This document shows positions 33,871-50,359 of a stretch of 64,000 nt of DNA, one piece after another; positions within the stretch are counted from its first letter, which is position 1; each line of letters opens with the position of its first letter. This DNA comes from a virus. The DNA is taken from IMG/VR virus record IMGVR_UViG_3300032242_002477, positions 1 to 64,000 of that record. One strand, 5' to 3'. Position numbers and translations under genes: made by a program. The notes under the pieces are model-generated. The model did not search any database, had not been told where the DNA came from, and saw only the letters and a program-made list of their open reading frames with translations.

Positions 33871-35342
33871 ACATAATATATTTGGGTGCCGAAGTCCCTA
33901 GTAATAGAACCATTTTGGAAGAATCTGGGGCCTCCCATGTTGGCGTCAGCTTTTGGCGGCTAACAAAGCGTGGGATGCCTAAAACTAAGGCTTATCTGTT
34001 ATCAAATTATTTTAGCCCTAATATGAATATATTTGTTCATCCAGGTATACCACGGGGAGAGAATTTAGACCGACTGCAGCTAGAAGCCTTTGCCGCCGAG
34101 TACGAAGAGTTTGTGGCAAATAATATAGACCGTATTAATATGTTTACAGAGGTTACCCATCCACAGCTTAGCCAAGCCTTTATAGAGGAACAACGTAGGA
34201 CTTGTTGGTCTGAGGTTACGCCGTCTAAATTCTTACCTGTATGGGCTACAGAGACTGGAAAACAGGGTCTTGAAGAGTTAGCCCTAAAATATTTAGATAT
34301 AGGTATATCGGGCGAAAGTATAGAGGAGTTTACTTGGTTAGCTTCTGAAACCCGTCGGTTGCGTCAATATGGCACTCGTTTTCACGCCCTAGCTTGTGCT
34401 AAACCTGATAATTTACGACAAGTTTGTGTTGAGTCAGCTTCGACTTTATCGTGGATTTCCCCTATGACTAGAGGCGAAACTATAGTTTGGGACGGTACTC
34501 GTTTAGTCCGTTACCCAAAGAAAATGAAAGACCAAGCCCGTACAAGATATCGTAAAGTGTACGAAAAGTCTGGTGTTGATTTCGATAAGATTATGGAAGA
34601 CGATGATAGAGAGGTTTGTAAATTAGCCGTATGGTCATACCAACAATTGGAGATAAAACTAAGCATGATTAACAATAATGGTTCAGACGGCTATGAGTTA
34701 TATGATAACAGTGACGATTTAGATGAGTCTTTATTTGAGGAAAGTACCCCCAGCGATGCTGATAAGAAGGGTATTGATGTACGGAAACTTGAACCAAGAA
34801 ACCCATCTGAAATGGTTGCGCTACCAGTATTTGGGTATGAGTTTAAAGAGGTAATTGAGAATGAAAATGGCAAGGATGTAATTAAAGAAGTTCCTGTTAT
34901 AAAGTCAAATTCAAGTACTTTAAGAGCATGCGATACTTGCTTTGTAGCTTCTAACTGTCCCGCATTTAAGCCTCAAACCATGTGTGCATTTAACTTACCA
35001 GTAGAGGTAAAGACTAAAGAACAACTTAAGAGTTTAATTAACACAATAATTGAAATGCAAGGTCAACGCGTTGCTTTTATGCGTTTTGCTGAGGAAATGA
35101 GCGGCGGATACGCTGACCCGAATGTATCGCAAGAAATCGACCGTTTGTTTAAGTTAATTAAAACTGTTAAAGAATTGGATGACTCTAGAGAGTTTATTAG
35201 AATGACTGTAGAGCGCCAAGGAGGGGCAGGTGTGTTGTCTTCTATATTTGGAGATAAGGCACAAGCCCTAAAAGAACTACCTAATAATGGGTTGGATGAG
35301 GACCAAACAACGCGTATTATCCAGCAATCTATTGAAGAATAG
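33867..35342 (+). CDS. TGT/DpdA-like TIM-barrel candidate with Cys-cluster domain
   Basis: 491 aa from TTG 33867, which overlaps the upstream stop. Residues 1-245 recall tRNA-guanine transglycosylase-type barrels: NIIYLGAEVPSNRTILEE, later KFLPVWATETG, KYLDIGISG, FHALACAKPDNLRQV and SASTLSWISPM. The place where TGTs have a DSGG loop reads HPGIP. The C-terminal part has CDTCFVASNC...C near 350-375. Members could modify DNA or RNA bases; this is inference. Confidence 0.4.
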   Translation: MNIIYLGAEVPSNRTILEESGASHVGVSFWRLTKRGMPKTKAYLLSNYFSPNMNIFVHPGIPRGENLDRLQLEAFAAEYEEFVANNIDRINMFTEVTHPQLSQAFIEEQRRTCWSEVTPSKFLPVWATETGKQGLEELALKYLDIGISGESIEEFTWLASETRRLRQYGTRFHALACAKPDNLRQVCVESASTLSWISPMTRGETIVWDGTRLVRYPKKMKDQARTRYRKVYEKSGVDFDKIMEDDDREVCKLAVWSYQQLEIKLSMINNNGSDGYELYDNSDDLDESLFEESTPSDADKKGIDVRKLEPRNPSEMVALPVFGYEFKEVIENENGKDVIKEVPVIKSNSSTLRACDTCFVASNCPAFKPQTMCAFNLPVEVKTKEQLKSLINTIIEMQGQRVAFMRFAEEMSGGYADPNVSQEIDRLFKLIKTVKELDDSREFIRMTVERQGGAGVLSSIFGDKAQALKELPNNGLDEDQTTRIIQQSIEE

Positions 35343-39404: not shown

Positions 39405-39525
39405 GTTCTTGCTCCTCCAATTTTTTTATGACTCGTTTGGTTTGGGCATTAGGTACTAATTGCCATAATATTTCTTTTGCCAATTTAATAGTATTAAGTT
39501 GAATATTTTTTTCTGTGTCGTTCAT
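39373..39525 (-). CDS. Small helical protein upstream of HicA-like gene
   Basis: 50 aa, almost entirely helix (MNDTEKNIQLNTIKLAKEIL, then RVIKKLEEQERAI). ATGA overlap with the CobT-like gene and a 32-base overlap with the HicA-like gene. It shows no HicB features. It might still bind the HicA-like protein. Confidence 0.5.
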   Translation of the reverse strand: MNDTEKNIQLNTIKLAKEILWQLVPNAQTKRVIKKLEEQERAITQNIEQS

Positions 39526-41501
39526 CGACGTGCTCCAATCTGTGCCTTAACGATATCGCTGGCAATCTCCACCAAGTGACGAGGTTCAGTAATAACATTA
39601 AAGAACTGGGCATAGTGTCGATACTGCTCAATGGACTCTACTTCATCAAACCCTTCGTAGATGTGACCAATAAACACGGTGCTGGTAATGACTCCCTTGT
39701 CGTTGAGTCGTTTTACTACATCATCGCAAGGTTCAGAATTATCAAATCCACCGTCAGTTATGATGAATAGTAATTTGGTAGAGCGCGAAGTCATATCAAA
39801 TATTTGTTCGGCTTCCGTAAGTGCACCAGTTGGATTTGTAGTTCCGTTTGTGTGAAGTACTGGAACTACATGGGGGTCTGTATCCTCATCAGCACTAAAC
39901 ATTAAACGGCTATTACTATTAAAAGAATATACGGTGGTGTTAGCGTTAAGTGCTTGAAGCCCACGCTTGATAGACCATACCGCATGGGAAGCGTGGAGAA
40001 CACGACCGCTCATTGAACTTGAGCAGTCTACAAGAATTACCGCTTCCATTTCTGTAGAATAATCAGCTTCCTCCCAGCGGTCAAACATACGATACAGGTC
40101 GTTGATACCTGAGTTCATAGTGCGTTGGACATTAAGTCGACCCTGAGGAACTTCGCGTACCCACGACTGCTCGTTATCTAATTCTAAGCGTTCGAGTTCA
40201 CGCGCAAACTCATCTGAAGCGTGACGATAATCCTCCATAACCGAACTTTTAGATGTGTTAGAGCGACCGAGAGTACCGTTGTATTCGTCGTTGAGATACA
40301 CGGACTCACGGAACTGTTGAATTTCTTGGGCAACGTGCGTGTTTGTTTTGAGTTTTTTAATGCGCTCGTTGATTTGGTCAGCTAACTTGTGGTCGGCTTC
40401 TGAGTATTGGTGCTCGTTTTCTATATCATTATTAGTGGTATCAAAATTATTATCATCACCTGAACCGCTATCTGAATTACTACCTGTTAATGATACTTCT
40501 GGAGCATTACCGAACATCTGTTCGGCTTTCTTGGAATCCTGCTCCTGAGCTTTTCCGCTAGTAGCACGACCTTTAGTAAGTGGGTTGTCTTTGCCACCGC
40601 AAGGGCTACTGATTTTAATATTATTACCAGCAGAATTATCGCCCTGTTTATCGCTTATTTCCTGGCCAGGAACTCCGCCACTACCGTTACCTTTTGGCAT
40701 ATCATTACCTGTGCCCACGATATCTGCAAACCGTTTGATGAGTGCTTTGGCTAAGTAATTATTGTCAGGAAAGGTAAGATAAATATATTCGTCGATGATG
40801 TCGGCAACGGATTTGGCGAGTTCCTGTCCATAATTATCTACGAACATTGAAGTAATCCGTTGGCGAATCCCAAAGTCCATATATTTTCTGCCATGAATTA
40901 ATATGAACGAATCAGCACTTTCGGACTCCAACATGACGTATCGCAGTGCGTTAGCTTCAAGAAAGAATCGAACGCTGGGAAAACGAGCCGTCATAAGTAA
41001 CTCGATACGTTGGTCCTCTAATATATTAAAGGCGTTCATAAAGTCGTTTTCAATTACCCACTTAACGAACTCCGACCCACCTCTAGGCGTGTAAAGGCTA
41101 TGGCAGATTTCGTGATAGTTAATTCCGTGAAGGCTAGGAATATCCTCCTCCGATAGCAACTTCACGACTTCACGGTTGAACGAGATATTTTTGCCGTCGT
41201 TCCAAGCCGACACCTGTGTAGGGATTTCGGGCGTTACGATTTGCACCGTAATATCCTCACCAGTAAGGATACGGTCGAACTTGGTATACACTTTTGTAGC
41301 TGATATCAAAGCCGAATCTTTTGAGCGGATAAAGCAGTCGATTTCTACTAATAATTGCTCATATTCGTGAATCGTATATACATCATCATTTAGAAGGTTT
41401 TTGACCGTATCAACACCGAACTCCTCGTCAATGATTTCCCAGTTGGCGCGTAAAAATTCGACAGTAATCTCCTTCTGAAGCTTTAAATGAGCGTGTGTCA
41501 T
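39522..41501 (-). CDS. CobT-like VWA protein with HEICH motif
   Basis: 659 aa. An N-terminal segment carries NYHEICHSLY (H130, E131, H134), a zincin-like HExxH. Residues 270-400 are a Gly/Ser/Asn/Glu-rich linker. The C-terminal VWA domain has the MIDAS DCSSSMSG near 488-495 and FIITDGGFDN. The layout is that of CobT/MoxR-associated VWA proteins, which work with the AAA+ protein encoded just upstream. Either cobalt chelation or a MoxR-VWA chaperone role is possible. Confidence 0.78.
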   Translation of the reverse strand: MTHAHLKLQKEITVEFLRANWEIIDEEFGVDTVKNLLNDDVYTIHEYEQLLVEIDCFIRSKDSALISATKVYTKFDRILTGEDITVQIVTPEIPTQVSAWNDGKNISFNREVVKLLSEEDIPSLHGINYHEICHSLYTPRGGSEFVKWVIENDFMNAFNILEDQRIELLMTARFPSVRFFLEANALRYVMLESESADSFILIHGRKYMDFGIRQRITSMFVDNYGQELAKSVADIIDEYIYLTFPDNNYLAKALIKRFADIVGTGNDMPKGNGSGGVPGQEISDKQGDNSAGNNIKISSPCGGKDNPLTKGRATSGKAQEQDSKKAEQMFGNAPEVSLTGSNSDSGSGDDNNFDTTNNDIENEHQYSEADHKLADQINERIKKLKTNTHVAQEIQQFRESVYLNDEYNGTLGRSNTSKSSVMEDYRHASDEFARELERLELDNEQSWVREVPQGRLNVQRTMNSGINDLYRMFDRWEEADYSTEMEAVILVDCSSSMSGRVLHASHAVWSIKRGLQALNANTTVYSFNSNSRLMFSADEDTDPHVVPVLHTNGTTNPTGALTEAEQIFDMTSRSTKLLFIITDGGFDNSEPCDDVVKRLNDKGVITSTVFIGHIYEGFDEVESIEQYRHYAQFFNVITEPRHLVEIASDIVKAQIGARR

Positions 41502-42874
41502 TAGAGGGTACCTCCTACGAATTCCTCAGTGCAAGAGAACCCCTCATCAGGTTGGAAAGTAATGTCGATTTTAATACCGAAGTCGCTGGCAATATTGACC
41601 TTGTAGGTATTCTCGACCGTCATACGGACTGCATTACGCTCCTTGCCTACATTAAAGCCGTTGAGAAAGGAATACATCGCGTAATCCAACCCTAGACGTT
41701 CGACATTTCGTGAGAAAGTAACTAGGTCGCGCGTAGATACTGGCGTGGCTAGTTCGCCCTTGATGTGGCTTTCGCGTAGCGCGTTCGCCATTTCGATGAG
41801 CGACTTTGATTTGACCAAAGCTTTCTCAATCTTAGGGTCGTAATCAAACTCCAACTTATGCGCCCAGCGGTTCTTGAACGCCTCATTTAGTGGTCGGGTT
41901 CCGCGGTACATTGGGTTCATATCAGCGACAATAAGAAGGTTTGGGTGAGCCTTGATAATTTCGCCGTCTTTGCCCATTAGTTGAATCTCACGTCGGTCGT
42001 CGAGGAGTGAGAATATAGCGGTTGTCACGCGCTCAGGGAGGAAGTTAACCTCATTGAGAAGCAATACACCGCCATTTCGGACAATTTGGGTAACTGCACC
42101 GTCTTGCCAAGCATAGTGTCCGTCTGTTGTAGGAATCCATTGACCAATCCACTGTGAAGGCTCTGAGCCGTTGTGACTGGAAATATTATAGTAATTGAGA
42201 TTTCGGGCTGAGGCATAGGCTAAAACGCTCATCGTCTTACCCGAGCCTGTTGGACCGAATACAAGCACGTTCTCAGCGTTAGCCATAGCGGAGTCGTAGA
42301 TATCGAACTCCGAGAGGTTGCCTAGCACTTTACGCTGGACATACTCTGTAGCCCACTTCTTGTCGGGAACTTGGGCAAGAACTACTTCATTGGAGGTCGT
42401 GCTTTGACGGGTATCGGTCTTAGCGGTTGCCTGTGGGGAAATTGGGGCTTGGCTGATTGGTTTAATATCAGTATGCCCACCGTCAATACGATAGGTATTG
42501 ATAGAGGAATCACCAATAAGCAAACGTTTATAGAACAGTTCAACCGCTATGGAATACGGCTCCAAGTCGTCGTGAGTTGGGTGCTCGTATTCAGCCCATT
42601 GGTTGATAATGCGAGAGGCTAGGGGAGTGATAATGCCGTTCTCAACCTGTAAGATATTATTAGCAGTAGTAGGAAAGGCGTACATATAGCAATTCGCTTC
42701 TACCTCAGGGAGCTCCTCTAAGGAAATTTCGCGCCAAGCTGAACCGCGACCACGTTGACCAGTATATTCTCTATGATAGATAGAGATACCATTAGATACA
42801 GGGACTAGAAGGGTCTGATATACCCCTTGACCTTCCCTCTTGCCGATAATGAGAACACTTAGGCTATTTGCCAT
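41501..42874 (-). CDS. MoxR/CobS-like AAA+ ATPase
   Basis: 457 aa. Walker A FGPTGSGKT near 207-215, Walker B GVLLLNEVN near 272-280 and the sensor region VADMNPMYRGTRPLNEAFKNR are those of CobS/MoxR-type ATPases. The first 170 residues are an extra domain. It is coupled to the CobT-like gene by TAATG. AAAGGGG precedes the ATG and a Crp/GlxR-type promoter lies about 30 bases further up. Confidence 0.82.
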   Translation of the reverse strand: MANSLSVLIIGKREGQGVYQTLLVPVSNGISIYHREYTGQRGRGSAWREISLEELPEVEANCYMYAFPTTANNILQVENGIITPLASRIINQWAEYEHPTHDDLEPYSIAVELFYKRLLIGDSSINTYRIDGGHTDIKPISQAPISPQATAKTDTRQSTTSNEVVLAQVPDKKWATEYVQRKVLGNLSEFDIYDSAMANAENVLVFGPTGSGKTMSVLAYASARNLNYYNISSHNGSEPSQWIGQWIPTTDGHYAWQDGAVTQIVRNGGVLLLNEVNFLPERVTTAIFSLLDDRREIQLMGKDGEIIKAHPNLLIVADMNPMYRGTRPLNEAFKNRWAHKLEFDYDPKIEKALVKSKSLIEMANALRESHIKGELATPVSTRDLVTFSRNVERLGLDYAMYSFLNGFNVGKERNAVRMTVENTYKVNIASDFGIKIDITFQPDEGFSCTEEFVGGTL

Positions 42875-42904
42875 TTATAAGCCCCTTTCATTGGGTTATG
42901 GCTG

Positions 42905-42960
42905 ATAATGCCATATATAGCAGACAATACCTACACCCTCTCTCTGTGAAGTAGGTCACA
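42905..42960 (-). promoter_or_regulatory. Crp/GlxR-type promoter of the CobS-CobT operon
   Basis: Box TGTGACCTACTTCACA on the minus strand (42945-42960), -35-like TAGGTA (42928-42933), 17-base spacer, -10 CATTAT (42905-42910). CCTACACCC starts exactly 15 bases from the box, as in all cassettes. It should drive genes down to the terminator at 37544. Confidence 0.7.
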
Positions 42961-43253
42961 TCTCTTTGGCTCTCGCTCTCTCGCTCTTGTTCTTTAGCTC
43001 TCTCACTCTCTCTGCTCTCTTATCTCTTATCTCTTTTGTGGCTATCTATTGCCTGTGGTACTTATCACATAACAAGCCTGAGACGGCTTCAAATATCTGG
43101 TGGTGCCCGTGTCGCTTTGTCGACATTGTGGGCAGTAGCCAAAATTGCCTATAAAGCAATAAGCAGATATGTTGATTTGTCGACATTTCATGTCGCATAA
43201 TCGTGCATATCAGGCTAGTTCTGCAAAATCAAGCCGACACGCCGAATTAGCAG
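42961..43253. other. Gene-free stretch with CT tract and paired 12-bp repeat
   Basis: No gene was seen. 42961-43035 is a CT-rich tract (GA-rich on the transcribed strand). TTTGTCGACATT occurs twice, at 43116-43127 and 43176-43187, exactly 60 bp apart and centred on palindrome TGTCGACA. The stretch separates two halves of a promoter cassette and may be the scar of a lost gene. Confidence 0.6.
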
Positions 43254-43269
43254 TGTGAGATTGGTCACA
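43254..43269. promoter_or_regulatory. Orphan Crp/GlxR-type box
   Basis: TGTGAGATTGGTCACA (plus strand) has intact half-sites but an altered centre, and CCTACACCC is not at the expected distance, so no promoter is visible. It lies 46 bases from an intact upstream arm. Confidence 0.6.
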
Positions 43270-43301
43270 ACTCTCTTCACACACTATTCCCAATAGAGAA
43301 T

Positions 43302-43325
43302 GGGGTGGGTGGGCCAACACAAACA
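43302..43325 (-). repeat. Upstream arm, copy 1
   Basis: Plus-strand GGGGTGGGTGGGCC followed by AACACAAACA. This copy has no flanking stem. It is paired with the orphan box at 43254. Confidence 0.8.
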
Positions 43326-43343
43326 AGCGGCGAGCACGCCAAG

Positions 43344-43373
43344 AAGCCCCCACGCACGCGGCGCGGGGGCTTT
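43344..43373 (-). terminator. Terminator of the Gp88-like gene
   Basis: AAGCCCCC and GGGGGCTT arms just after the stop of the minus-strand gene; only a short T-rich tail follows on the minus strand. Confidence 0.65.
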
Positions 43374-43385
43374 GGGGCTGAGGGA

Positions 43386-44078
43386 TTACCTCTTCTTGAT
43401 GGAGAACAACACGTCCTTGCCTCCTTTCACGCATATATTGCAGGCGATACAGGCGCCTTTTAAGCTTATTTGCTTACGATTCTCGGGGCACATTGCAGCT
43501 CGGGGTAAAATCGCCTTACCGTCGGCAAATGTCTCTTCTAACATCGCTATTGATATCCCCATATCTTTTAATTCCATCGCCGTTGACAGATTCTCAGTGT
43601 CTGCGGAGAAATATAGGCTTAAATTTGTTAGCTCTAAGCTATGGAGAAATTTCGCGCTATGCGAATTACGCGTGTATACCCAAAATATAATATTAGGATG
43701 AGACTTAATGACATGAGCCCACGCCTCAGTGTAGGTCATGGAGAAAAAATCTCCATCCCAATGGATGCGGAATTTCTTATCGGCAGACCATTTCTCACAT
43801 TCACTCTCAAATGCGATAACCATGCTATTAAGTAGGTTAATCATGGTATCTCTCTTAGCCTCTCTCAATAGGCTATAGTTATACATGAGCACATCTCTCA
43901 CGCTAGGCCTAATTTTTTCTAGTTTGCCTGCGTAACAGATACTTTCACAGATAGAAGTAGCTCCTGGACAGGAATACGCCTTGCCACTAGGCAAGCCGAA
44001 GGAATTACCTATGCGAGCAGACCCGCTAGGCGTGAGGCTATTAGCCACTTTGACATCTTTAGACCTTTTAAGTTCCAT
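43386..44078 (-). CDS. Gp88-family protein (mycobacteriophage L5 gp88-like)
   Basis: 230 aa. NSFGLPSGKAYSCPGATSICESICYAG is the signature of the L5 gene-product-88 family, and C-terminal CPENRKQ, CIAC and CVKGG add cysteines that might hold a metal cluster. The family is common in actinophages; function is unknown. The ATG lies 7 bases after its -10, and no SD is present, so the mRNA is probably leaderless. Confidence 0.75.
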   Translation of the reverse strand: MELKRSKDVKVANSLTPSGSARIGNSFGLPSGKAYSCPGATSICESICYAGKLEKIRPSVRDVLMYNYSLLREAKRDTMINLLNSMVIAFESECEKWSADKKFRIHWDGDFFSMTYTEAWAHVIKSHPNIIFWVYTRNSHSAKFLHSLELTNLSLYFSADTENLSTAMELKDMGISIAMLEETFADGKAILPRAAMCPENRKQISLKGACIACNICVKGGKDVLFSIKKR

Positions 44079-44084
44079 AGGTAG

Positions 44085-44140
44085 ACCTTATCTCGCTATA
44101 TCTAGCAGACCTACACCCTGATGGTGTGAATTAGGTCACA
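44085..44140 (-). promoter_or_regulatory. Crp/GlxR-type promoter of the Gp88-like gene
   Basis: Box 44125-44140 (plus strand TGTGAATTAGGTCACA), -35-like TAGGTC at 44108-44113, 17-base spacer, -10 TAAGGT at 44085-44090. The A of the ATG at 44078 is at the expected transcription start. Confidence 0.75.
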
Positions 44141-44177
44141 GTGAACTCTCTTTAATATATATTCCCTAAATGGACAT

Positions 44178-44200
44178 GGGAGGGTGGGCCAACACAAACA
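44178..44200 (-). repeat. Upstream arm, copy 2
   Basis: Plus-strand GGGAGGGTGGGCC then AACACAAACA. Flanking stem is minimal (TGG with CCA). Confidence 0.75.
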
Positions 44201-44202
44201 AA

Positions 44203-44250
44203 CGCGCCCCGCGAAAAGCGGGGAGCGGGTTTTAAGCCCGCCCCCCAGCC
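44203..44250 (-). terminator. Double-hairpin terminator region
   Basis: On the minus strand GCGGG pairs with CCCGC, then CCCCGC pairs with GCGGGG around TTTTC. The two share CCCGC-type arms and may be alternatives. It follows the 44258-44698 gene. Confidence 0.6.
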
Positions 44251-44257
44251 TTTCCGC

Positions 44258-44698
44258 TTAGAGGTACTGTTTCGACCAATCGACAGGTAGAGCAATCTCA
44301 TCTTTGCTAGTCATCTCAAGATAAGAGAGCATATTTGCGCGTTCATTGTAATTACTGTTATTTTCAGGCTTAATCGGCTCACTAGGCTTATTAGGCATAG
44401 TGTCAAACTCAGAGGCGAAAATGCCCTTGATAGTTAGCCGAATATCAACACCTGTACTTTGGCGAGCGTTATTTACCCACTCCCAATCGTCAGACACATT
44501 GGCATAGGTAATCTCATTACTCTTAGCAAGCAAGGAAGACACTTTCTTGACATATAAGGTTATGGACTTTTCATAAGCAATTTTCGCCTTTTCATAAGCC
44601 TTAACCTCTCTCTCATATTCTTTGAGAGTATCAGCCTGTTTTCTTTCAATTTTAGCGATAAGTAGCGTCTTATCAACTACGAGCCTTGTGGTTGCCAT
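44258..44698 (-). CDS. Coiled-coil hypothetical protein
   Basis: 146 aa. Residues 10-60 form a long charged helix (KIERKQADTLKEYEREVKAY onward). The remainder has Ser/Asn/Pro-rich stretches. AAGGGGGG precedes the ATG. A single-gene cassette. No family recognised. Confidence 0.55.
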   Translation of the reverse strand: MATTRLVVDKTLLIAKIERKQADTLKEYEREVKAYEKAKIAYEKSITLYVKKVSSLLAKSNEITYANVSDDWEWVNNARQSTGVDIRLTIKGIFASEFDTMPNKPSEPIKPENNSNYNERANMLSYLEMTSKDEIALPVDWSKQYL

Positions 44699-44722
44699 AA
44701 GGCGAACCCCCCTTATTTATCT

Positions 44723-44748
44723 GTAACAGAACCCTGTTGTTCAGTTAC
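44723..44748 (-). other. 5'-end hairpin of cassette mRNA
   Basis: GTAAC and GTTAC outer arms with GAAC/GTTC inner pairs and one T-T mismatch. It begins at the predicted transcription start (about 44749), so it would cap the mRNA. Confidence 0.55.
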
Positions 44749-44755
44749 ATAGCAG

Positions 44756-44811
44756 AACCTATCGCACCAAACTCCTAAGACCTACACCCTCCGCGTGTGA
44801 CATACATCACA
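44756..44811 (-). promoter_or_regulatory. Crp/GlxR-type promoter
   Basis: Box 44796-44811 (plus strand TGTGACATACATCACA), -35-like TAGGTC at 44779-44784, 17-base spacer, -10 TAGGTT at 44756-44761. Drives the 44258-44698 gene. Confidence 0.75.
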
Positions 44812-44856
44812 CTCTAGTTTTATCTCTCTTACTCCATACTCCCTATAATATTAAAC

Positions 44857-44880
44857 GGGGTGGGAGGGCCAACACAAACA
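44857..44880 (-). repeat. Upstream arm, copy 3
   Basis: Plus-strand GGGGTGGGAGGGCC then AACACAAACA. No flanking stem. Confidence 0.78.
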
Positions 44881-44910
44881 TATTTTCGCAGCGGGCAATC
44901 TCGCGACAAA

Positions 44911-44937
44911 GGTCGTCAAGGTCGTCAAGGTCGTCAC
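44911..44937. repeat. 9-bp tandem repeat
   Basis: GGTCGTCAA occurs twice followed by GGTCGTCAC between an upstream arm and a terminator. Noncoding; probably slippage. Confidence 0.85.
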
Positions 44938-44939
44938 CT

Positions 44940-44979
44940 AAAAAAATAGCGGGCTCTGCCTAGAAACAGAACCCGCTAT
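44940..44979 (-). terminator. Terminator
   Basis: AGCGGGTTCTG pairs with CAGAGCCCGCT on the minus strand, followed by a run of seven T. Ends the 45014-45536 pair. Confidence 0.9.
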
Positions 44980-45013
44980 GTAGTCAGGGGGTGACTACCT
45001 CACTAAAACCCCG

Positions 45014-45262
45014 TTAGTCACGCTCCCAATTGTCATAATCAACGGGGTCATATTCTCCCCCAGAACTATAACTCTCAGAACAATCAGGGCATGTCCAATC
45101 TGCCGTCCAATAGACTACCCCATGCTCGTAGACTTCGAGAGTAGGTATTTCTCCCGAAAACCCACATTCGCACTCTAAGTCTTGAACTCCATCAGACTCA
45201 TCATATCCAGAAATAGCGGGCTCATTACCCGATACCCCAGGAGGATAATTACTCAATGACAT
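45014..45262 (-). CDS. Small acidic zinc-ribbon protein
   Basis: 82 aa from ATG 45262, inside the end of the gene upstream (14-base overlap). CECGF near 31-35 and CPDC near 57-60 make a zinc ribbon; the C terminus is acidic. A longer frame upstream only shadows the neighbour. No function assigned. Confidence 0.55.
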   Translation of the reverse strand: MSLSNYPPGVSGNEPAISGYDESDGVQDLECECGFSGEIPTLEVYEHGVVYWTADWTCPDCSESYSSGGEYDPVDYDNWERD

Positions 45263-45536
45263 CTTCAACCTCCAATATAGTGTTAAGGAACTCTTCCAAA
45301 TGGTGTTGCTCAACAATAGCGTTAGCAGGTGCCGTTGCCTCACCCTTGAAAGTGACAGGACTAGGCAATTCAATCTGCCGATAGCTGTCACCCTCTGCCA
45401 CAGCATAGAGAGCCTCAATACATGGTATAACCATGCTTGATGGAATAGGCGGATAAAAATTACCCGTCAAATGAACCTTGACTCCAACTTCCAATGGAAC
45501 TGATACTGATAAGTCTTGTGCGAAATTACGCCCCAT
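45249..45536 (-). CDS. Hypothetical protein
   Basis: 95 aa from ATG 45536, placed by AAAGGGGG nearby. Mainly beta-strand with Pro-rich loops (VKVHLTGNFYPPIPSSMVI), acidic at the end. No known family. It heads a two-gene cassette. Confidence 0.55.
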   Translation of the reverse strand: MGRNFAQDLSVSVPLEVGVKVHLTGNFYPPIPSSMVIPCIEALYAVAEGDSYRQIELPSPVTFKGEATAPANAIVEQHHLEEFLNTILEVEDVIE

Positions 45537-45561
45537 GACTTCCCCCTTTCTAGGTAAGCAA

Positions 45562-45617
45562 AACTTATCACGCCACAATAGGCAGACCTACACCCTCTTG
45601 ATGTGACTTATATCACA
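45562..45617 (-). promoter_or_regulatory. Crp/GlxR-type promoter
   Basis: Box 45602-45617 (plus strand TGTGACTTATATCACA), -35-like TAGGTC at 45585-45590, 17-base spacer, -10 TAAGTT at 45562-45567. Drives 45536-45014. Confidence 0.78.
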
Positions 45618-45649
45618 ACTCTCTCCACCACCTATTCCCTTTAGGGTTA

Positions 45650-45679
45650 GGAAGGGTGGGTGGGCTTCCAACACAAACA
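45650..45679 (-). repeat. Upstream arm, copy 4, with stem
   Basis: GGAAG (45650-45654) pairs with CTTCC (45665-45669) around the GGTGGGTGGG loop, then AACACAAACA. A further GGG upstream makes four G-runs on the plus strand. Confidence 0.8.
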
Positions 45680-45712
45680 TCCCACGCGTTCAAGCGTGTC
45701 GCGAAACGCGAG

Positions 45713-45743
45713 AACCCGACCCCCACCAAGCAGGGAGTCGGGT
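45713..45743 (-). terminator. Terminator
   Basis: CCCGACTCCC and GGGGGTCGGG arms on the minus strand after the stop at 45762, with a weak T-rich tail. Confidence 0.65.
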
Positions 45744-45761
45744 CGCGTTTTTGCTAGGGGG

Positions 45762-46244
45762 CTAGCAAATCTCGAAGCCACCACAAGCTAACAAAAATTC
45801 GGCAAATTCTTGGACATTCTCTACCGAGAACGGATAGTGAGTCTGCCAAGGTCGCTTAGTTTTTTTGCCATCACAGGAATTACAAGGGTCGCGGAAAGTA
45901 ACTTCACCCTCTACATAATCGAACCAACCTTCCTGAACTTGAACAATCCCCACACCTTTACAAAAATCGCAAGGTTCATCCTCAAGGCTATCCAACGACT
46001 CTTGATATTGACGAGCATATTCGGCAGTACGACCCGAAGCAATTTCCGCTAACAAATCCTCAGCGAGAGCAATCGCCCCTTCACTATCGAACCCGTCACC
46101 GCTATTGCTATGACCATCAATCTCTGAACACTCAGGTCGTATCTGCTCACAGTAATCCCAAAGTGGTCGCCACCACCACACATTATTGCGAAAATACTCA
46201 CCCTTAGTAGAAATCGGCGTTTTACCATAGACATCCATACCCAT
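45762..46244 (-). CDS. Protein with DnaJ-type Cys repeats
   Basis: 160 aa. CDFCKGVGIV near 95-104 and CNSCDGKKTK near 124-133 are the CxxCxGxG-like repeats of DnaJ zinc fingers. The N-terminal half is Trp/Tyr-rich (NNVWWWRPLWDYCEQI). It starts 2 bases after the gene upstream ends. Function unknown. Confidence 0.6.
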   Translation of the reverse strand: MGMDVYGKTPISTKGEYFRNNVWWWRPLWDYCEQIRPECSEIDGHSNSGDGFDSEGAIALAEDLLAEIASGRTAEYARQYQESLDSLEDEPCDFCKGVGIVQVQEGWFDYVEGEVTFRDPCNSCDGKKTKRPWQTHYPFSVENVQEFAEFLLACGGFEIC

Positions 46245-46246
46245 AA

Positions 46247-46540
46247 TTATTCACCCATACTCTCTGCTAGTTTTTGACACATCATAAAATCGTTATACTC
46301 ACTCGCCCCTAATTGAGTCGCCACAAGAGAAATAGTTTCAATCAAGGCTGATGCCTCATCTTTCTCCACATTGTGAACCTCAATCAAACGAGATATAGCG
46401 ACAGTTTTTAAGAAACTAAGGAACATTGACAGGTTATTATTCCACCATGCCATATCCTCATTACCAATTTCAAGATTATTTTTCATTAAATCCATTAAAT
46501 CGAACATCCGTTTAATTTTTTCAATATTAGGCTTATCCAT
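46247..46540 (-). CDS. Helical hypothetical protein
   Basis: 97 aa from ATG 46540 (AAAGGGGG upstream). All helix, with KIKRMFDLMDLMKNN near the start and repeated Met/Leu/Glu. No domain recognised. It heads a two-gene cassette with the DnaJ-Cys-type gene. Confidence 0.55.
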   Translation of the reverse strand: MDKPNIEKIKRMFDLMDLMKNNLEIGNEDMAWWNNNLSMFLSFLKTVAISRLIEVHNVEKDEASALIETISLVATQLGASEYNDFMMCQKLAESMGE

Positions 46541-46570
46541 AATATTGAACCCCCTTTCTTGGTAGACCAA

Positions 46571-46626
46571 ACATTATCCCACCGACTAGGGCAGACCTAC
46601 ACCCTGCCATTGTGACTTACATCACA
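46571..46626 (-). promoter_or_regulatory. Crp/GlxR-type promoter
   Basis: Box 46611-46626 (plus strand TGTGACTTACATCACA), -35-like TAGGTC at 46594-46599, 17-base spacer, -10 TAATGT at 46571-46576. The mRNA would start in a small TTGG/CCAA hairpin. Drives 46540-45762. Confidence 0.8.
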
Positions 46627-46662
46627 TTAAACTCTCTTCTTCCCTTTATTCCCTGTATTGGT

Positions 46663-46693
46663 AACTGGGTGGGTGGGCAGTTCCAACACAAAC
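46663..46693 (-). repeat. Upstream arm, copy 5, with stem
   Basis: AACTG (46663-46667) pairs with CAGTT (46678-46682), extended by GG/CC across a bulge; AACACAAAC follows. Confidence 0.8.
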
Positions 46694-46733
46694 TTTTCGC
46701 GGGCGGGCTTGCCACGCGTTCGGGCGTGTCGCA

Positions 46734-46772
46734 ATAAAAAAAACCCCCACCTTTCCTAAGGGCAGGGGTTCT
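46734..46772 (-). terminator. Terminator
   Basis: AACCCCTGCC pairs with GGTGGGGGTT on the minus strand (one mismatch region), followed by eight T. Ends the 46786-47304 gene. Confidence 0.9.
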
Positions 46773-46785
46773 TTCCGCTTGGGGG

Positions 46786-47304
46786 CTATTCCTCTAGAGG
46801 AATTATTAAATCAGAATTCTCTAGTATTTTATCAACTACTGTACTATGTAATTCTGTTCTCATCATAGAGAATCCGCTGGCTGGCCAACCTGCTTGATAA
46901 CATCTTGCTAGTAGATTGGTAAGATTAGACGCGTCAGACTTAGTTTCGCCATGACTAAGTGTTAAATACGAATTAGCGAGCGCGGTATCTCCTAATTCAT
47001 ACTTGAACGAGGAAAGTACGGCATAGATAGGAGCCTTATAACCATCAGGAAAGGACATCCCGATAATCTCTAGGAAATCGGCAACATCTGAAACGGAGGA
47101 CTCATTAGGTAATCCGATAACATAATCTCTTATGTCTAGGACTTCACTATTGACTCCCACTAGGAAATCAAGCAATAAATCGTCGGTAATCTCACTCTCT
47201 CGACCTTCACGCCATAATTTATACGCCGTATCAATCGCTAGTTTAGACTTGCCAACTGTGGTGCTATGTGCGGAAACCTTTTCCGCTTGGAGTGATGTAA
47301 TCAT
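46786..47304 (-). CDS. DUF4192-like hypothetical protein
   Basis: 172 aa from ATG 47304, placed by GGGGGAAGTG directly upstream; ATG 47340 is an alternative near the transcription start. The C-terminal IYAVLSSFKYELGDTALANS to QAGWPASGF resembles the helical C terminus of DUF4192 (inference). Related wording (YWRGDTARTVKAELNAHL) occurs in the 48253 protein. Function unknown. Confidence 0.55.
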   Translation of the reverse strand: MITSLQAEKVSAHSTTVGKSKLAIDTAYKLWREGRESEITDDLLLDFLVGVNSEVLDIRDYVIGLPNESSVSDVADFLEIIGMSFPDGYKAPIYAVLSSFKYELGDTALANSYLTLSHGETKSDASNLTNLLARCYQAGWPASGFSMMRTELHSTVVDKILENSDLIIPLEE

Positions 47305-47345
47305 CACTTCCCCCAATCTGTCGGGTGTACTGTCCGACATGGCAA

Positions 47346-47401
47346 ACACTATCTGACCAATACCCTTAGACCTACACCCTGTCTATGTGACTTATGTCAC
47401 A
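47346..47401 (-). promoter_or_regulatory. Crp/GlxR-type promoter
   Basis: Box 47386-47401 (plus strand TGTGACTTATGTCACA), -35-like TAGGTC at 47369-47374, 17-base spacer, -10 TAGTGT at 47346-47351. The leader can form a TGTCGG/CCGACA hairpin just after the start point. Confidence 0.8.
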
Positions 47402-47439
47402 CTCTGTAACTCTCTTCTTCCCATAATTCCCATAATAAA

Positions 47440-47471
47440 GAGATGGGTGGGAGGGCAGCTCAACACAAACA
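47440..47471 (-). repeat. Upstream arm, copy 6, with imperfect stem
   Basis: GAGAT and AGCTC flank GGGTGGGAGGGC with one mismatch, then AACACAAACA. Confidence 0.75.
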
Positions 47472-47507
47472 TTTTTTGCCCACGCGCTCGGGCGTGTCGC
47501 GGAGCGT

Positions 47508-47530
47508 GAAAAACGGGGGCTTACGCCCCC
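47508..47530 (-). terminator. Terminator whose loop contains the stop codon
   Basis: GGGGGC (47525-47530) pairs with GCCCCC (47515-47520); the loop GTAA includes the TAA of the 47521-47646 gene, and five T follow on the minus strand. Confidence 0.85.
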
Positions 47531-47646
47531 GCCTTCCTATGATTTTTGCGCGTACACTTACCGCAAGGCTTACCAGTAATTGCCACGAGTAAGTCATTAT
47601 CATCTCCGCATTGTGGGCAGACACTATCTAATAAGTGACGGCTCAC
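47521..47646 (-). CDS. Small zinc-ribbon protein
   Basis: 41 aa, GTG 47646 with an excellent SD AAAGGAGGTG. CPQC near 10-13 and CGKC near 29-32, basic tail. GTGA overlap with the gene upstream. A longer frame further up overlaps that gene and is rejected. Confidence 0.6.
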   Translation of the reverse strand: MSRHLLDSVCPQCGDDNDLLVAITGKPCGKCTRKNHRKAGA

Positions 47647-47888
47647 GCCGTCACCTCCTTTCGTAGTTGTGCCTCGCACTCTTCGAGGATTGCTAGAGCG
47701 TATTCGCGCCCCTTGATGCCACGACCTGGGTTGATACCTGTTAAACGGGTGAAAGCGTGGAGAGATGATTCTTTCGTGAGTTGTGCTCGTGATGTGTTCC
47801 ATGTGCGGATTTCAAGATTCAACCCTTGCTTAAGGATAAGAACCTGAATCGGTGATATCGAGAATTCTACTAATTGACCTTGTGTCAT
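47643..47888 (-). CDS. Hypothetical protein
   Basis: 81 aa, ATG 47888 with AAAGGGGG in the loop of a TAGTG/CACTA hairpin. It starts with beta-strands (QLVEFSISPIQVLILKQG) and ends in a charged helix. No family recognised. Confidence 0.55.
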   Translation of the reverse strand: MTQGQLVEFSISPIQVLILKQGLNLEIRTWNTSRAQLTKESSLHAFTRLTGINPGRGIKGREYALAILEECEAQLRKEVTA

Positions 47889-47911
47889 TTAGTGCCCCCT
47901 TTCACTATCAA

Positions 47912-47966
47912 ACATTACAGCCCCAACCAGCCAAACCTACACCCTGCCATTGTGATTTATGTCACA
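47912..47966 (-). promoter_or_regulatory. Crp/GlxR-type promoter
   Basis: Box 47951-47966 (plus strand TGTGATTTATGTCACA), -35-like TAGGTT at 47934-47939, 16-base spacer, -10 TAATGT at 47912-47917. Drives 47888-47521. Confidence 0.8.
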
Positions 47967-48003
47967 CGCTTAGACTCTCTTCTTCCCTTTATTCCCTTAT
48001 ATA

Positions 48004-48037
48004 TTGAGCTGGGTGGGTGGGCTGCTCAACACAAACA
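48004..48037 (-). repeat. Upstream arm, copy 7, with stem
   Basis: TTGAGC (48004-48009) pairs with GCTCAA (48024-48029) around TGGGTGGGTGGGCT, then AACACAAACA (overlapping). Confidence 0.82.
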
Positions 48038-48062
48038 TTTACCGCGCGACCGCGGACATGCG

Positions 48063-48089
48063 AAAGCCCCCACCTTTCGGCAGGGGCTC
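48063..48089 (-). terminator. Terminator
   Basis: GAGCCCCTGCC pairs with GGTGGGGGCTTT around GAAA on the minus strand; nearly the same design as the one at 49250. Confidence 0.75.
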
Positions 48090-48103
48090 CGCGTTAGCGG
48101 GGG

Positions 48104-48256
48104 CTAACCTTCTTGACCGCACGCCTTGAGGAAACGGTACGTGTCAAAATTACTGTTGAATTGTCGGCAAGCTCTCGCGACTGCTTGACATGTCGCTAAG
48201 TCTGCCCCGACTGCCTTCAGCTCATCCGCTAAGGCTTGAAAGTGTTTACGGCTCAT
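48104..48256 (-). CDS. Small conserved-looking actinophage protein
   Basis: 50 aa. It starts MSRKHFQALADELKAVGADL and ends FDTYRFLKACG, a pattern I recall from many small actinophage proteins of about 50 residues. ATGA overlap with the gene upstream. Function unknown. Confidence 0.65.
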   Translation of the reverse strand: MSRKHFQALADELKAVGADLATCQAVARACRQFNSNFDTYRFLKACGQEG

Positions 48257-48498
48257 GCTCTCACCCCCTTAAGATGAGCGTTTAATTCTGCCTTGACTGT
48301 CCGAGCCGTATCGCCCCTCCAGTATGTCAGATTAGACAATGCGTAGAGAACAATAGATGAACCGCTGTCCTCGTAATAATTGTCAGATATTGACGTGAGC
48401 GATTCCATAGCCGAGATGTAAGGCTCAGCGTAAACGTACCAATTCTTATAAGCACACTCAGATTTAACAATCTGAGCTAATTCTGCGAGAGTTCGCAT
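48253..48498 (-). CDS. Small hypothetical protein
   Basis: 81 aa from ATG 48498 (AAAGGGGGC upstream). Helical, with IVLYALSNLTYWRGDTARTV resembling part of the 46786 protein. No known function. It heads a two-gene cassette. Confidence 0.6.
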   Translation of the reverse strand: MRTLAELAQIVKSECAYKNWYVYAEPYISAMESLTSISDNYYEDSGSSIVLYALSNLTYWRGDTARTVKAELNAHLKGVRA

Positions 48499-48539
48499 TC
48501 TTGCCCCCTTTACTAGTTCGGCACTTTGCCGATAAGAGA

Positions 48540-48595
48540 AACCTACCACCCACCACCAGCAAGACCTACACCCTGCCATTGTGACATAAGTCACA
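48540..48595 (-). promoter_or_regulatory. Crp/GlxR-type promoter
   Basis: Box 48580-48595 (plus strand TGTGACATAAGTCACA), -35-like TAGGTC at 48563-48568, 17-base spacer, -10 TAGGTT at 48540-48545. The leader contains a TCGGC/GCCGA hairpin. Confidence 0.8.
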
Positions 48596-48633
48596 CGCCT
48601 AAACTCTCTCCTCCTTATTCCCTTTAGGGTTGT

Positions 48634-48664
48634 GACTGGGTGGGTGGGCAGTCCAACACAAACA
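48634..48664 (-). repeat. Upstream arm, copy 8, with stem
   Basis: GACTG (48634-48638) pairs with CAGTC (48649-48653), then AACACAAACA. A fourth G-run lies upstream on the plus strand. Confidence 0.82.
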
Positions 48665-48696
48665 AATAGGGCGAGCCCGCTTTCGCGAGCCCGCCC
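48662..48696 (-). terminator. Terminator
   Basis: A 12-bp stem (48669-48680 with 48685-48696, two wobbles) around GAAA, then TATTTGTTTG on the minus strand. Ends the 48713-49042 gene. Confidence 0.8.
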
Positions 48697-48712
48697 CTGC
48701 GGAAATTCGGGG

Positions 48713-49042
48713 CTAAACCCCTGCCCCCTCCTCCTCAATTTCCAAGTCCTCGCGTATTAAGTCCGAGAGACAAGAGCAGGAATCTTGCATTTCGAGACAA
48801 TAGCAATCATAGCCAGCGTTGAGATACCTACATTCATCACGGTGAAAAGCTCGCACTACACTATAGCCCTCATCTGTAGGCTTACCGCACACACCACACC
48901 ACTCGACTCTACCTAACTCAAAATTGGCGTGAAACTCGCACAGAACCTCATTATTAAGAGCATACCTTGCTACACCCCCACACTCGCGTGGAAAAAGGTC
49001 AGGACGGACGGAAGTAGAAACATTAAATTGGCAATTTGCCAT
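48713..49042 (-). CDS. Cys-rich zinc-binding hypothetical protein
   Basis: 109 aa. Ten cysteines, including CGVCGKP near 49-55 and CYC/CSC near the end, and an acidic tail. TAGGGGGC precedes the ATG. It looks like a structural zinc protein with two sites; no family recognised. Confidence 0.55.
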   Translation of the reverse strand: MANCQFNVSTSVRPDLFPRECGGVARYALNNEVLCEFHANFELGRVEWCGVCGKPTDEGYSVVRAFHRDECRYLNAGYDCYCLEMQDSCSCLSDLIREDLEIEEEGAGV

Positions 49043-49086
49043 GAGAAGCCCCCTAAAACGGTGTAGGCGGTGTTGCCTACGGCAAC

Positions 49087-49141
49087 AGTTTATTGCCCCG
49101 ATTACAGAAACCTACACCCTGACCATGTGACATAAGTCACA
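49087..49141 (-). promoter_or_regulatory. Crp/GlxR-type promoter
   Basis: Box 49126-49141 (plus strand TGTGACATAAGTCACA), -35-like TAGGTT at 49109-49114, 16-base spacer, -10 TAAACT at 49087-49092. The mRNA would begin with a GTTGCC/GGCAAC hairpin. Confidence 0.8.
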
Positions 49142-49186
49142 TATACTAGGCATTTCTCTTCAACAACCCCCTTACGAAGTAAGTTA

Positions 49187-49217
49187 GGAGCTGGGTGGGT
49201 GGGCTCCAACACAAACA
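49187..49217 (-). repeat. Upstream arm, copy 9, with stem
   Basis: GGAGC (49187-49191) pairs with GCTCC (49203-49207) around the G-rich loop, then AACACAAACA. Confidence 0.82.
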
Positions 49218-49249
49218 TTTCGCCGCGACACGCCCAACCGCGGACATGC

Positions 49250-49278
49250 GAAAGCCCCCGCCGTGTGGCAGGGGCTCC
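49250..49278 (-). terminator. Terminator
   Basis: GAGCCCCTGCC pairs with GGCGGGGGCTTT around ACAC on the minus strand after the stop at 49294. Confidence 0.75.
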
Positions 49279-49293
49279 GCATTTATCCGAGGG

Positions 49294-49698
49294 CTATTCG
49301 GAAACCTCGTGTGAGCACTCGATAACTTCCTCGCTATCCGATACCTTTCCGTCTAGTGAGATAACAGAAAGATTGTCGCTAACCCAATCCTCATCTATTT
49401 CATCGCTGGTAGTAATTGAGAATCGAGCCTTGATTAAGACCTCTACTACATAGTCATAACTCAATATAAGACCAAAGATGCTTGCGATTTCCTGAGTGTG
49501 TTCCTCAAGGTTGTCGCGGTTATCTTTGAGATAAGTTTCGAGCGAATCACGCTGACTATATAGGCGCGATAGTGTCTTAAGATGGTACTGATTAGTACCC
49601 TTGAGATTTTCGATTTCGGATTTTAGTGCGTCATACTCGCTGAGAGTAAGAGTTACTTCCATAGCTACTGCTGGTGTTACTGGTGTATCTGTATCCAT
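49294..49698 (-). CDS. Coiled-coil hypothetical protein
   Basis: 134 aa from ATG 49698 (AAGGGGGC upstream). Residues 20-75 are a long coiled-coil helix (LTLSEYDALKSEIENLKG onward), then an acidic C-terminal region. No family recognised. It is the outermost gene of the cassette array. Confidence 0.55.
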   Translation of the reverse strand: MDTDTPVTPAVAMEVTLTLSEYDALKSEIENLKGTNQYHLKTLSRLYSQRDSLETYLKDNRDNLEEHTQEIASIFGLILSYDYVVEVLIKARFSITTSDEIDEDWVSDNLSVISLDGKVSDSEEVIECSHEVSE

Positions 49699-49745
49699 TG
49701 TATAGCCCCCTTGTTTAGTTATAGTCACACTTTGACTATGCCCTA

Positions 49746-49801
49746 AGGCTACACCACCAACACCCCTCGACCTACACCCTGCTCGTGTGAGCTACCTCAC
49801 A
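49746..49801 (-). promoter_or_regulatory. Crp/GlxR-type promoter without upstream arm
   Basis: Box 49786-49801 (plus strand TGTGAGCTACCTCACA), -35-like TAGGTC at 49769-49774, 17-base spacer, -10 TAGCCT at 49746-49751. The leader has an ATAGTCA/TGACTAT hairpin. The G-rich arm is absent here, so it is not essential to the promoter module. Confidence 0.75.
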
Positions 49802-49813
49802 TTTACCCCCCGA

Positions 49814-49841
49814 CCCTTAATCGAACAGGTGTTCGAAAGGG
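49814..49841. other. Bulged hairpin at the edge of the array
   Basis: TCGAAC and GTTCGA inner arms plus CCCTT/AAGGG outer arms with a 2-base bulge and AGGT loop. It lies between the last cassette and the HNH gene. It might end HNH transcription or mark an insertion edge. Confidence 0.45.
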
Positions 49842-49876
49842 CCACCAGACTTCAGACCCAGGTCATACATAGAAAG

Positions 49877-50359
49877 CTAGGCAGTAGCCGAGTTTTTGAG
49901 CAAATTTGCGCTTTTGCGGATATTGCAGGTTGCGTGGGAGGGCTTTACATTTGAAATAATATTTGGGCCACCTTTGGCTAAAGGAATTACGTGGTCAAGG
50001 TGCAGACCGTACTCCCAGCCTGGTTCACCGCAATTTCGGGTTAATCTCATATCAATTGAGGTATTACAGATATGACACTCCGTACCCCATAGGTCTAACA
50101 CGTCTTTAGTAGAAAAATTAACAGACTTAACTTGTCGTAGTCGTGCTCGTGCTTTTCGGTCTTTTCTTCGGTTCCACTCTGTTTTTTTATGGGGATACCG
50201 CTTGTAATAGTCTTTATCTTGTTGTTTATACTTTTCTGGGTCTTTGGCTATTTGAGCGCGTCTATAAGCAGCTGCTATGGCTTTGCAATCAAGGCACGCT
50301 ATTTCGTTAAGCTTTTTGCAGCGGTAATAGTCCCCTATAGATACCCCATGTTGGTCCAT
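49877..50359 (-). CDS. HNH endonuclease
   Basis: 160 aa. CHIC near 107-110, LHLDHVIPLAKGG near 131-143 and a final ATCNIRKS give the complete HNH core with its zinc ribbon. An N-terminal CKKLNEIACLDC may be a second zinc site, and the middle is very basic. Likely a homing or packaging-type nuclease. It is a free-standing gene with a remnant of a sister gene just upstream. Confidence 0.82.
   Translation of the reverse strand: MDQHGVSIGDYYRCKKLNEIACLDCKAIAAAYRRAQIAKDPEKYKQQDKDYYKRYPHKKTEWNRRKDRKARARLRQVKSVNFSTKDVLDLWGTECHICNTSIDMRLTRNCGEPGWEYGLHLDHVIPLAKGGPNIISNVKPSHATCNIRKSANLLKNSATA

Follow-up and report, generated by a model that had tools for sequence, protein, structure and literature searches.

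Nearly all of the small genes in one region of a phage genome are separated by the same short non-coding element, and the folded shape of this element is under selection, because the sequences of its stem change and yet stay complementary. The nine copies lie at 43272–49216 of a 64,000-nucleotide stretch of virus DNA (positions 1 to 64,000 of IMG/VR record IMGVR_UViG_3300032242_002477; 'the window' hereafter), which is part of a 74,580-base record with the appearance of a tailed phage. Copies that lack the stem display a second coupling, between two single bases, that goes beyond pairing within one strand. The element might be the structured core of a module that sets off gene cassettes with separate regulation from one another, its fold blocking read-through; we give this reading a probability of roughly 0.4.

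Architecture of the boundary element

The genes at 39522–50359 are on the minus strand, and so the element, too, is read on the minus strand; the template strand is therefore the G-rich one, and RNA from read-through would be rich in C. In gene orientation the layout is GTTTGTGTTG-[X]-CCCNCCCNCCC-[X']-linker-GGGA-about 10 bases-AGAGAG, and then a Crp-like box and AGGGTGTAGG. Each element lies 3' of the terminator hairpin of the preceding gene and 5' of the Crp-like box and promoter of the next. Copy 9 has GGGG for GGGA and AGAGAA for AGAGAG; copy 1 has its own Crp-like box, with the AGGGTGTAGG motif much further downstream. A tenth unit of Crp-like box and AGGGTGTAGG, at 49771–49801, has no arm upstream, and offers a natural control for the arm's necessity.

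These sequences are far too frequent for chance. With up to two mismatches GGGTGGGTGGGC occurs 14 times where 1.8 occurrences are expected, and AACACAAAC occurs 11 times where 0.8 are expected; neither count was matched in any shuffle. A preliminary description, made from the sequence of the window, had placed nine conserved arms on the plus strand, and all nine are where it put them, between 43303 and 49216. GGGTGGGTGGGC is exact in six of the nine and altered from T to A at one position in the other three; AACACAAACA lacks its final A in the copy at 46667. The gap to AACAC, put at 0–5 bases, measures 1–6, and the arm, upstream of the Crp-like box as described, is 55–75 bases from the start of that box when measured from its AACAC end, or 33–51 from the G-run block, instead of 46–66. 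Five complementary arm pairs, and a sixth with one mismatch, are just as they were claimed to be.

The element was also said to lie outside the promoter and after the upstream terminator, and hairpin and spacing data agree. The 45 bases before GTTTG fold with a mean minimum free energy of -16.8 kcal/mol (128 copies), compared with -8.2 at random positions, and it is on this comparison that the upstream hairpin rests, in place of a strict scan for perfect-stem terminators, which finds them at 16 of 122 elements and 3 of 122 random positions. In several window copies the T-rich tail of the hairpin is GTTTGTGTT itself. About one-third of the elements lack a strong upstream hairpin, and many of these are preceded, upstream of GTTTG, by a motif resembling TTTAGGG-N-TGCC...CCCAAAGCC-TAAT (L024, L035, L036, L042, L050, L051). 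Between GGGA and AGAGAG many copies contain short tandem repeats of period 2–4 (GTTGTTGTG, GTATGTATG, ATATATAT, GTAAGTAAG; in the window at 43272–49216, in L020, L031, L036 and L039, and in others), which suggests frequent slippage there at a roughly fixed spacing.

Covarying stems and coupled bases

Copies of the element take two open forms. In type B, X is at least 3 bases long and the sequences on either side of the C-run block form a stem of 4–5 bp around a loop of 11–14 bases, arranged either as X-G-CCCNCCCNCCC-X' or as X-CCCNCCCNCCC-NG-X'. The inner pairs of 56 type B copies comprise 178 Watson-Crick pairs, 3 G-U pairs and 5 mismatches. Five of the six window copies with such an arm pair over at least 4 bp, a result reached in none of 20,000 letter shuffles and in 116 of 20,000 trials in which the 3' arms were dealt among the copies. 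Across the collection the mean stem score is 3.76; redistributing the 3' sides over the copies lowers it to 2.42 (standard deviation 0.10, maximum 2.77). With the register fixed by a rule blind to complementarity, 32 of 58 copies are fully complementary; redealing gives a mean of 4.4 and a maximum of 11. Among 37 distinct sequences 93.2% of cells are paired, compared with 55.6% after shuffling and 28–43% in slid versions, and the covariation score is 1.023 against 0.280, a value not equaled in 500 shuffles. Some stem registers in the alignment behind this score were chosen for complementarity, a choice for which the dealt-arm and rule-based tests control. The preliminary description had argued for selection on structure and proposed a covariation check across related phage spacers; the stem does covary strongly, and the argument is much stronger once about 50 related contigs are added.

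Type A copies have no long X and read CCCC-N1-linker-GGGA-N2. Their linkers are diverse (3–16 bases), and yet N1 matches N2 in every one of the 44 distinct copies: G in 22, A in 18, T in four and C in none. The mutual information between the two positions is 1.0 bit, whereas no other column exceeds 0.34, and A, G and T types are found together in single genomes. Identity on one strand amounts to complementarity across strands, so a pair can form between N2 and the base opposite N1. The coupling is not one of pairing within one strand; it is as expected if the two DNA strands, or RNA and its template, had to pair; in the antiparallel register of such a pair, the GGG of the sense strand would come to lie beside the GGG runs of the template strand. 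The length of the spacer seems to change in step on both sides, because three copies, and only three (L020, L029 and L057), read CCC-TC-AT...GGG-AA-AT.

Two other explanations bear directly on this coupling. Replication slippage might homogenize short direct repeats around GGGA, making N1=N2 a by-product. The period 2–4 repeats after GGGA would be its raw material, and at one orthologous locus ATT...ATTATT has become GTT...GTTGTT (L078+3912 versus L093+4467). The coupling is limited to a single base, however, and its neighbors are uncoupled (at offset 3, 33 of 44 are identical and 31.2 are expected), while examples such as GAA...GTATGTATG retain N with no copied repeat. We consider slippage an improbable source. 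We think hardly better of the idea that GTTTGTGTTG with CCCNCCCNCCC, and GGGA-N10-AGAGAG, are half-sites at which a protein of the phage or the host binds to turn the next promoter on or off, N1=N2 being read by two subunits of alternative paralogs. Near-invariant sequence blocks would suit such a protein, as would the roughly constant spacing of GGGA to AGAGAG (9–11 bp is commonest) and, in the window, of element to Crp-like box. But the N1–N2 distance varies by more than 10 bases, the three base types coexist in one genome, the cassette at 49771 is armless, and a protein that binds duplex DNA has no need of stems that covary.

Closed relatives of the element

Many of the same phages possess closed elements, GTTTGTG...CACAAAC, that also end in CAACACAAAC. 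None is present in the window. Among 18 closed elements that keep the C-runs (type C), 17 show four or more G3 runs in the template strand; in the eighteenth (L015, 81 bases) there are three, and the opposite strand has a GGG. A hairpin sits between the runs at a position that varies, GGG-hairpin-GGGTGGGTGGG in some and GGGTGGG-hairpin-GGGTGGG in others. Type D elements are long palindromes, usually with one asymmetric internal loop, and a scan found 38 such stretches; those in L016, L023, L041, L117, L130 and L133 are near-perfect, with GTTTGTGTTGG/CCAACACAAAC ends and outer arms of up to 32 bp. In some closed elements, from L141, L146 and L158, it is the sense strand that is rich in G (e.g. 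GGGTGGCTGGGTGGGGTGG) and not the template strand.

Types C and D occupy equivalent spacers, in many of the same contigs. Because palindromes and G-run forms interchange, the pattern fits a role that would need only a strong non-B structure at that place. Together with the N1=N2 coupling, these palindromic relatives, both absent from the preliminary description, alter the picture of the element that it gave.

Distribution among related viruses

A pattern scan of IMG/VR found 42 records besides that of the window, and a looser pattern added further ones, for about 50 contigs in all and 134 distinct copies of the element. All of the contigs are viral. Of 122 testable elements 106 share the strand of their genes, three lie inside an open reading frame, and the median distance to the next start codon is 176 bp. 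Contigs of bacterial genomes gave nine matches, none accompanied by the rest of the element, and these we judge to be chance, not signs of host or prophage origin. A blastn search of cultured phages with a type A query found no similar element.

The operators downstream of AGAGAG vary from cassette to cassette. Among L027, L029, L044, L010 and L074 there are Crp-like (TGTGA-N6-TCACA), LexA-like (GAAC-N4-GTTC) and DnaA-box-like (TTATCCACA) sites, tandem ATCGTTAT, palindromes of the form TATTCTAGCC...GGATAGAATA, and CGGCGTGTCG. Each cassette gene may answer to a separate host regulator.

The order of the genes differs, too, among related phages, and alignments start or stop at the elements, the one kind of breakpoint examined. 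In L093 a single element separates the genes that adjoin elements 1 and 3 in L078, and orthologous cassettes can have unrelated element alleles between conserved flanks (L078+5854 versus L079-187, 85% identity). With the phage's own UvsX-like recombinase, these observations favor the main rival to a boundary that blocks read-through, namely that the element is mainly a site at which cassettes are exchanged between phages, as are the promoter-early stem-loops (PeSLs) of T4-like phages, perhaps with help from a quadruplex as at pilE of Neisseria. We regard this as unlikely. Any intergenic repeats are expected to shuffle without a dedicated function; a repeat used in this way should favor identical copies, yet the stems differ in nearly all of them; and exchange leaves the fixed orientation and the N1=N2 coupling unexplained.

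Quadruplex potential and the choice between RNA and DNA

The preliminary description attributed four G-runs to several copies and suggested a test for G-quadruplexes. Its count was too strong: a canonical one-strand quadruplex, with four G3 runs and short loops, is possible in two of the nine window copies, and the rest have three runs. What all nine do have is the sequence potential for an interstrand (3+1) arrangement, with a GGG on the opposite strand within 11–21 bases; so do 115 of 132 collected copies. Its proposal of an antisense RNA fares no better, since promoter-like matches are fewer than in shuffles (9 versus 12.8) and no Rfam family is matched, and we have rejected antisense and small RNAs on these grounds. 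Rfam 15 gives no match in the window and nothing at or above the gathering score in four element-bearing loci. Two kinds of promoter were also set aside: a SigB-type promoter (GTTT...GGGAAT), by inspection, because its spacing would be variable and at least 22, and a T7-like promoter (TATAGGGAG), whose distance to the conserved block varies by more than 10.

Might the element work as RNA nonetheless? If sense RNA is made, either by read-through or from a hidden promoter, a C-rich hairpin or a CCC-GGGA pseudoknot could serve as a protein or Rho site or as a stabilizer of 3' ends. Such a pseudoknot can be drawn, from stem X/X' and CCC:GGG. G-U pairs outnumber A-C pairs in type B stems, 14 to 0, although 11 of the 14 are at the invariant first G. 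The invariance of the C-runs means that CCC:GGG pairing cannot display covariation; the pseudoknot accounts neither for N1=N2 nor for the closed C-rich elements that retain four C-runs with no GGG partner; the RNA has a minimum-energy fold other than the stem; and the spacer lies after a terminator and before a promoter, with no Rfam match. Function as plain RNA strikes us as a poor prospect, about on a par with cassette exchange. The position of the element and the two-strand coupling together argue for DNA, or for a hybrid of RNA and template, instead. By computed folding the covarying stem is too weak alone to form the minimum-energy fold of the sense strand, and so structure in the G-runs, a protein, or transcription must help. 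We read this as a fold that would form co-transcriptionally or be driven by supercoiling.

A possible boundary function

Each module runs from the terminator hairpin of the upstream gene through GTTTGTGTTG, the CCCNCCCNCCC block (closed in type B by the short stem that covaries and in type A by the coupled base pair), GGGA and AGAGAG, to the operators and promoter of the next cassette. The spacer would be opened by RNA polymerase that has run past the upstream terminator, or by negative supercoiling. Once it is open, the three G3 runs of the template strand could fold, taking a fourth GGG from the same strand or from the other one, as DNA or as RNA hybridized to the template; the stem, or the pair between N2 and the template-strand partner of N1, would hold the fold shut. 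Read-through would stop there, leaving each cassette under its own promoter, and in the palindromic versions a long hairpin would have this role.

Our best reading, then, is of a boundary module that resembles the PeSLs but has a structural core of a new kind and probably blocks read-through, a function that we infer. A more specific proposal is that the core is a two-strand quadruplex, with three template G3 runs and one GGG from the other strand (DNA or an RNA hybrid), closed by an interstrand base pair, and that it acts across a large phage group as an interchangeable cassette insulator, other versions of which are hairpins throughout or one-strand quadruplexes. This we offer tentatively, with more doubt than belief.

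Several observations weigh against these proposals. The gene of the armless unit at 49771 seems intact. The opposite run is GG instead of GGG in the majority of copies of one phage (G019; L027/L084) and in a few from elsewhere, and 11 of the 132 collected copies lack both a GGG and a fourth CCC. The computed fold of the sense strand omits the covarying stem, and neither strand folds better than shuffles. Finally, the outer arms of type D palindromes have 31 G-U and 10 A-C pairs on the sense strand (with 670 Watson-Crick pairs), a hint, to the credit of the RNA alternative, that sense RNA matters rather than duplex DNA. Only outer arms were used in this strand test because base composition confounds it in symmetric folds.

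Setting in the phage genome

Besides its recombinase the phage encodes a DNA polymerase, a helicase, a ribonucleotide reductase and baseplate genes. Only Streptomyces phage records are similar in DNA sequence to the cassette region, and no T4-like record matched it at that level. One cassette gene belongs to Pfam GP88; because of this gene and the Streptomyces similarity, a host among the Actinobacteria is likely. An AAA ATPase and VWA-domain pair, arranged like CobS/CobT, is under the first cassette (39522–42874). At the end of the array an HNH endonuclease gene, possibly a homing gene, adjoins the armless promoter unit (49877–50359), and a queuine tRNA-ribosyltransferase-like gene at 33804–35342 possibly belongs to a pathway of phage DNA modification.

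Table 1. Boundary elements of the window with their upstream hairpins and downstream promoter-like units
Feature	Coordinates	Strand	Remarks
Element copy 1	43272..43324	-	type A, GTTTGTGTTGG-CCCACCCACCCC-A...GGGA-A...AGAGAG; N1=N2=A
Element copy 2	44147..44199	-	diverged type A, no X stem (CCC-ATGTCCATTTA-GGGAAT)
Element copy 3	44825..44879	-	type A, CCCC-G...GGGA-G; N1=N2=G
Element copy 4	45620..45678	-	type B, stem GGAA/TTCC around GCCCACCCACCC; then CCCTAAAGGG hairpin; four G3 runs on + strand
Element copy 5	46633..46693	-	type B, stem AACT/AGTT
Element copy 6	47411..47470	-	type B, one mismatch: GAGCT/ATCTC
Element copy 7	47976..48036	-	type B, stem GAGC/GCTC
Element copy 8	48605..48663	-	type B, stem GACT/AGTC; four G3 runs on + strand
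Element copy 9	49155..49216	-	type B, stem GGAG/CTCC, AG in loop; second hairpin CTTAC-TTC-GTAAG
Hairpin immediately before copy 1	43328..43341	-	T-rich tail includes GTTTGTG
GC hairpin before copy 2	44207..44223	-	tail continues into GTTTGTGTT
Intrinsic terminator-like hairpin and T-run upstream of copy 3	44946..44979	-	
Hairpin before copy 4	45683..45698	-	tail continues into GTTTGTGTT
Intrinsic terminator-like hairpin and T-run upstream of copy 5	46743..46763	-	
13-bp GC hairpin before copy 8	48668..48697	-	tail continues into GTTTGTGTT
Downstream unit of copy 2	44110..44140	-	Crp-like box TGTGA-N6-TCACA, then AGGGTGTAGG (probable -10 region)
Downstream unit of copy 3	44781..44811	-	Crp-like box and AGGGTGTAGG
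Downstream unit of copy 4	45587..45617	-	Crp-like box and AGGGTGTAGG
Downstream unit of copy 5	46596..46626	-	Crp-like box and AGGGTGTAGG
Downstream unit of copy 6	47371..47401	-	Crp-like box and AGGGTGTAGG
Downstream unit of copy 7	47936..47966	-	Crp-like box and AGGGTGTAGG
Downstream unit of copy 8	48565..48595	-	Crp-like box and AGGGTGTAGG
Downstream unit of copy 9	49111..49141	-	Crp-like box and AGGGTGTAGG

Comparison with known systems

We found no description of the element in the openly readable literature, which is not proof of novelty. Some familiar elements can be told apart from it by their structure. Integron attC sites, cleaved by IntI, read RYYYAAC...GTTRRRY; the ends of the closed relatives, GTTTGTG...CACAAAC, are in the opposite order, and the window copies have no closing arm. 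MITEs and REP/RAYT elements, which have terminal inverted repeats and target duplications and insert at scattered places, differ as well: here there is one copy per spacer, mostly gene-oriented, and no target duplication was visible by eye at the flanks of the closed relatives (a Y1 transposase was not searched for). Promoter hairpins for the N4 virion RNA polymerase have a 5–7 bp stem and a 3-base loop, whereas the stem here is 4–5 bp and the loop 11–14 bases. The SAS/ESAS sequences of cluster K phages consist of GGGATAGGAGCCC at the start codon with a 17-bp inverted repeat upstream.

The pilE G4 of Neisseria gonorrhoeae sets a functional precedent, since it too is rich in G and lies upstream of a promoter; it is a full four-run quadruplex beside one gene and needs a transcript starting inside it (PMC3547852), whereas the present phage has three runs on one strand, and one element for each cassette. 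Interstrand quadruplexes that draw G-runs from both strands of one duplex have been predicted by pattern in the human genome (PMC4699641), and what the viruses add is conservation, of the fourth run and of a coupled closing base. Among phages of Actinobacteria the nearest case is that of cluster M mycobacteriophages, in which the intergenic repeats CR3/CR4, with upstream stem-loops, likewise combine a conserved motif with variable hairpins among many small genes in one arm of the genome (PMC7953290). The layout is different: in spacers of the cluster M phage Estes the motif ACACGGAGAAGGGA, presumably CR3/CR4, stands just before the start codon; GTTTGTGTT is absent from the part of Estes that was read, and a C-run block from all of the intergenic gaps listed.

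The nearest concept is that of the PeSLs (Arbiol 2010, Comeau 2014, as cited in PMC4503421). These are composites of stem-loop and promoter between small genes of a plastic region, tied to gene shuffling, and the phage of the window resembles them in layout, with a hairpin upstream, a promoter-like unit downstream and a shuffled gene order. PeSLs occur in T4-like phages, whereas only Streptomyces phages share DNA with this region. To the terminator and the promoter the present element adds a third part between them (the invariant GTTTGTGTTG, the C-run/G-run loop, the covarying stem and GGGA), and here the operators, of host type, change between cassettes.

Covariation is what conventionally proves a folded RNA to be real. 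In these phages it marks a short element in a spacer that is apparently untranscribed, along with a second coupling beyond one-strand pairing. If the two-strand proposal is right, this would be evolutionary evidence for functional quadruplexes that use both DNA strands, or RNA and its template, and two single-base positions make the idea directly testable. If it is wrong, what stands beside the PeSLs and CR3/CR4 is still an undescribed and widespread class of phage gene-boundary elements.

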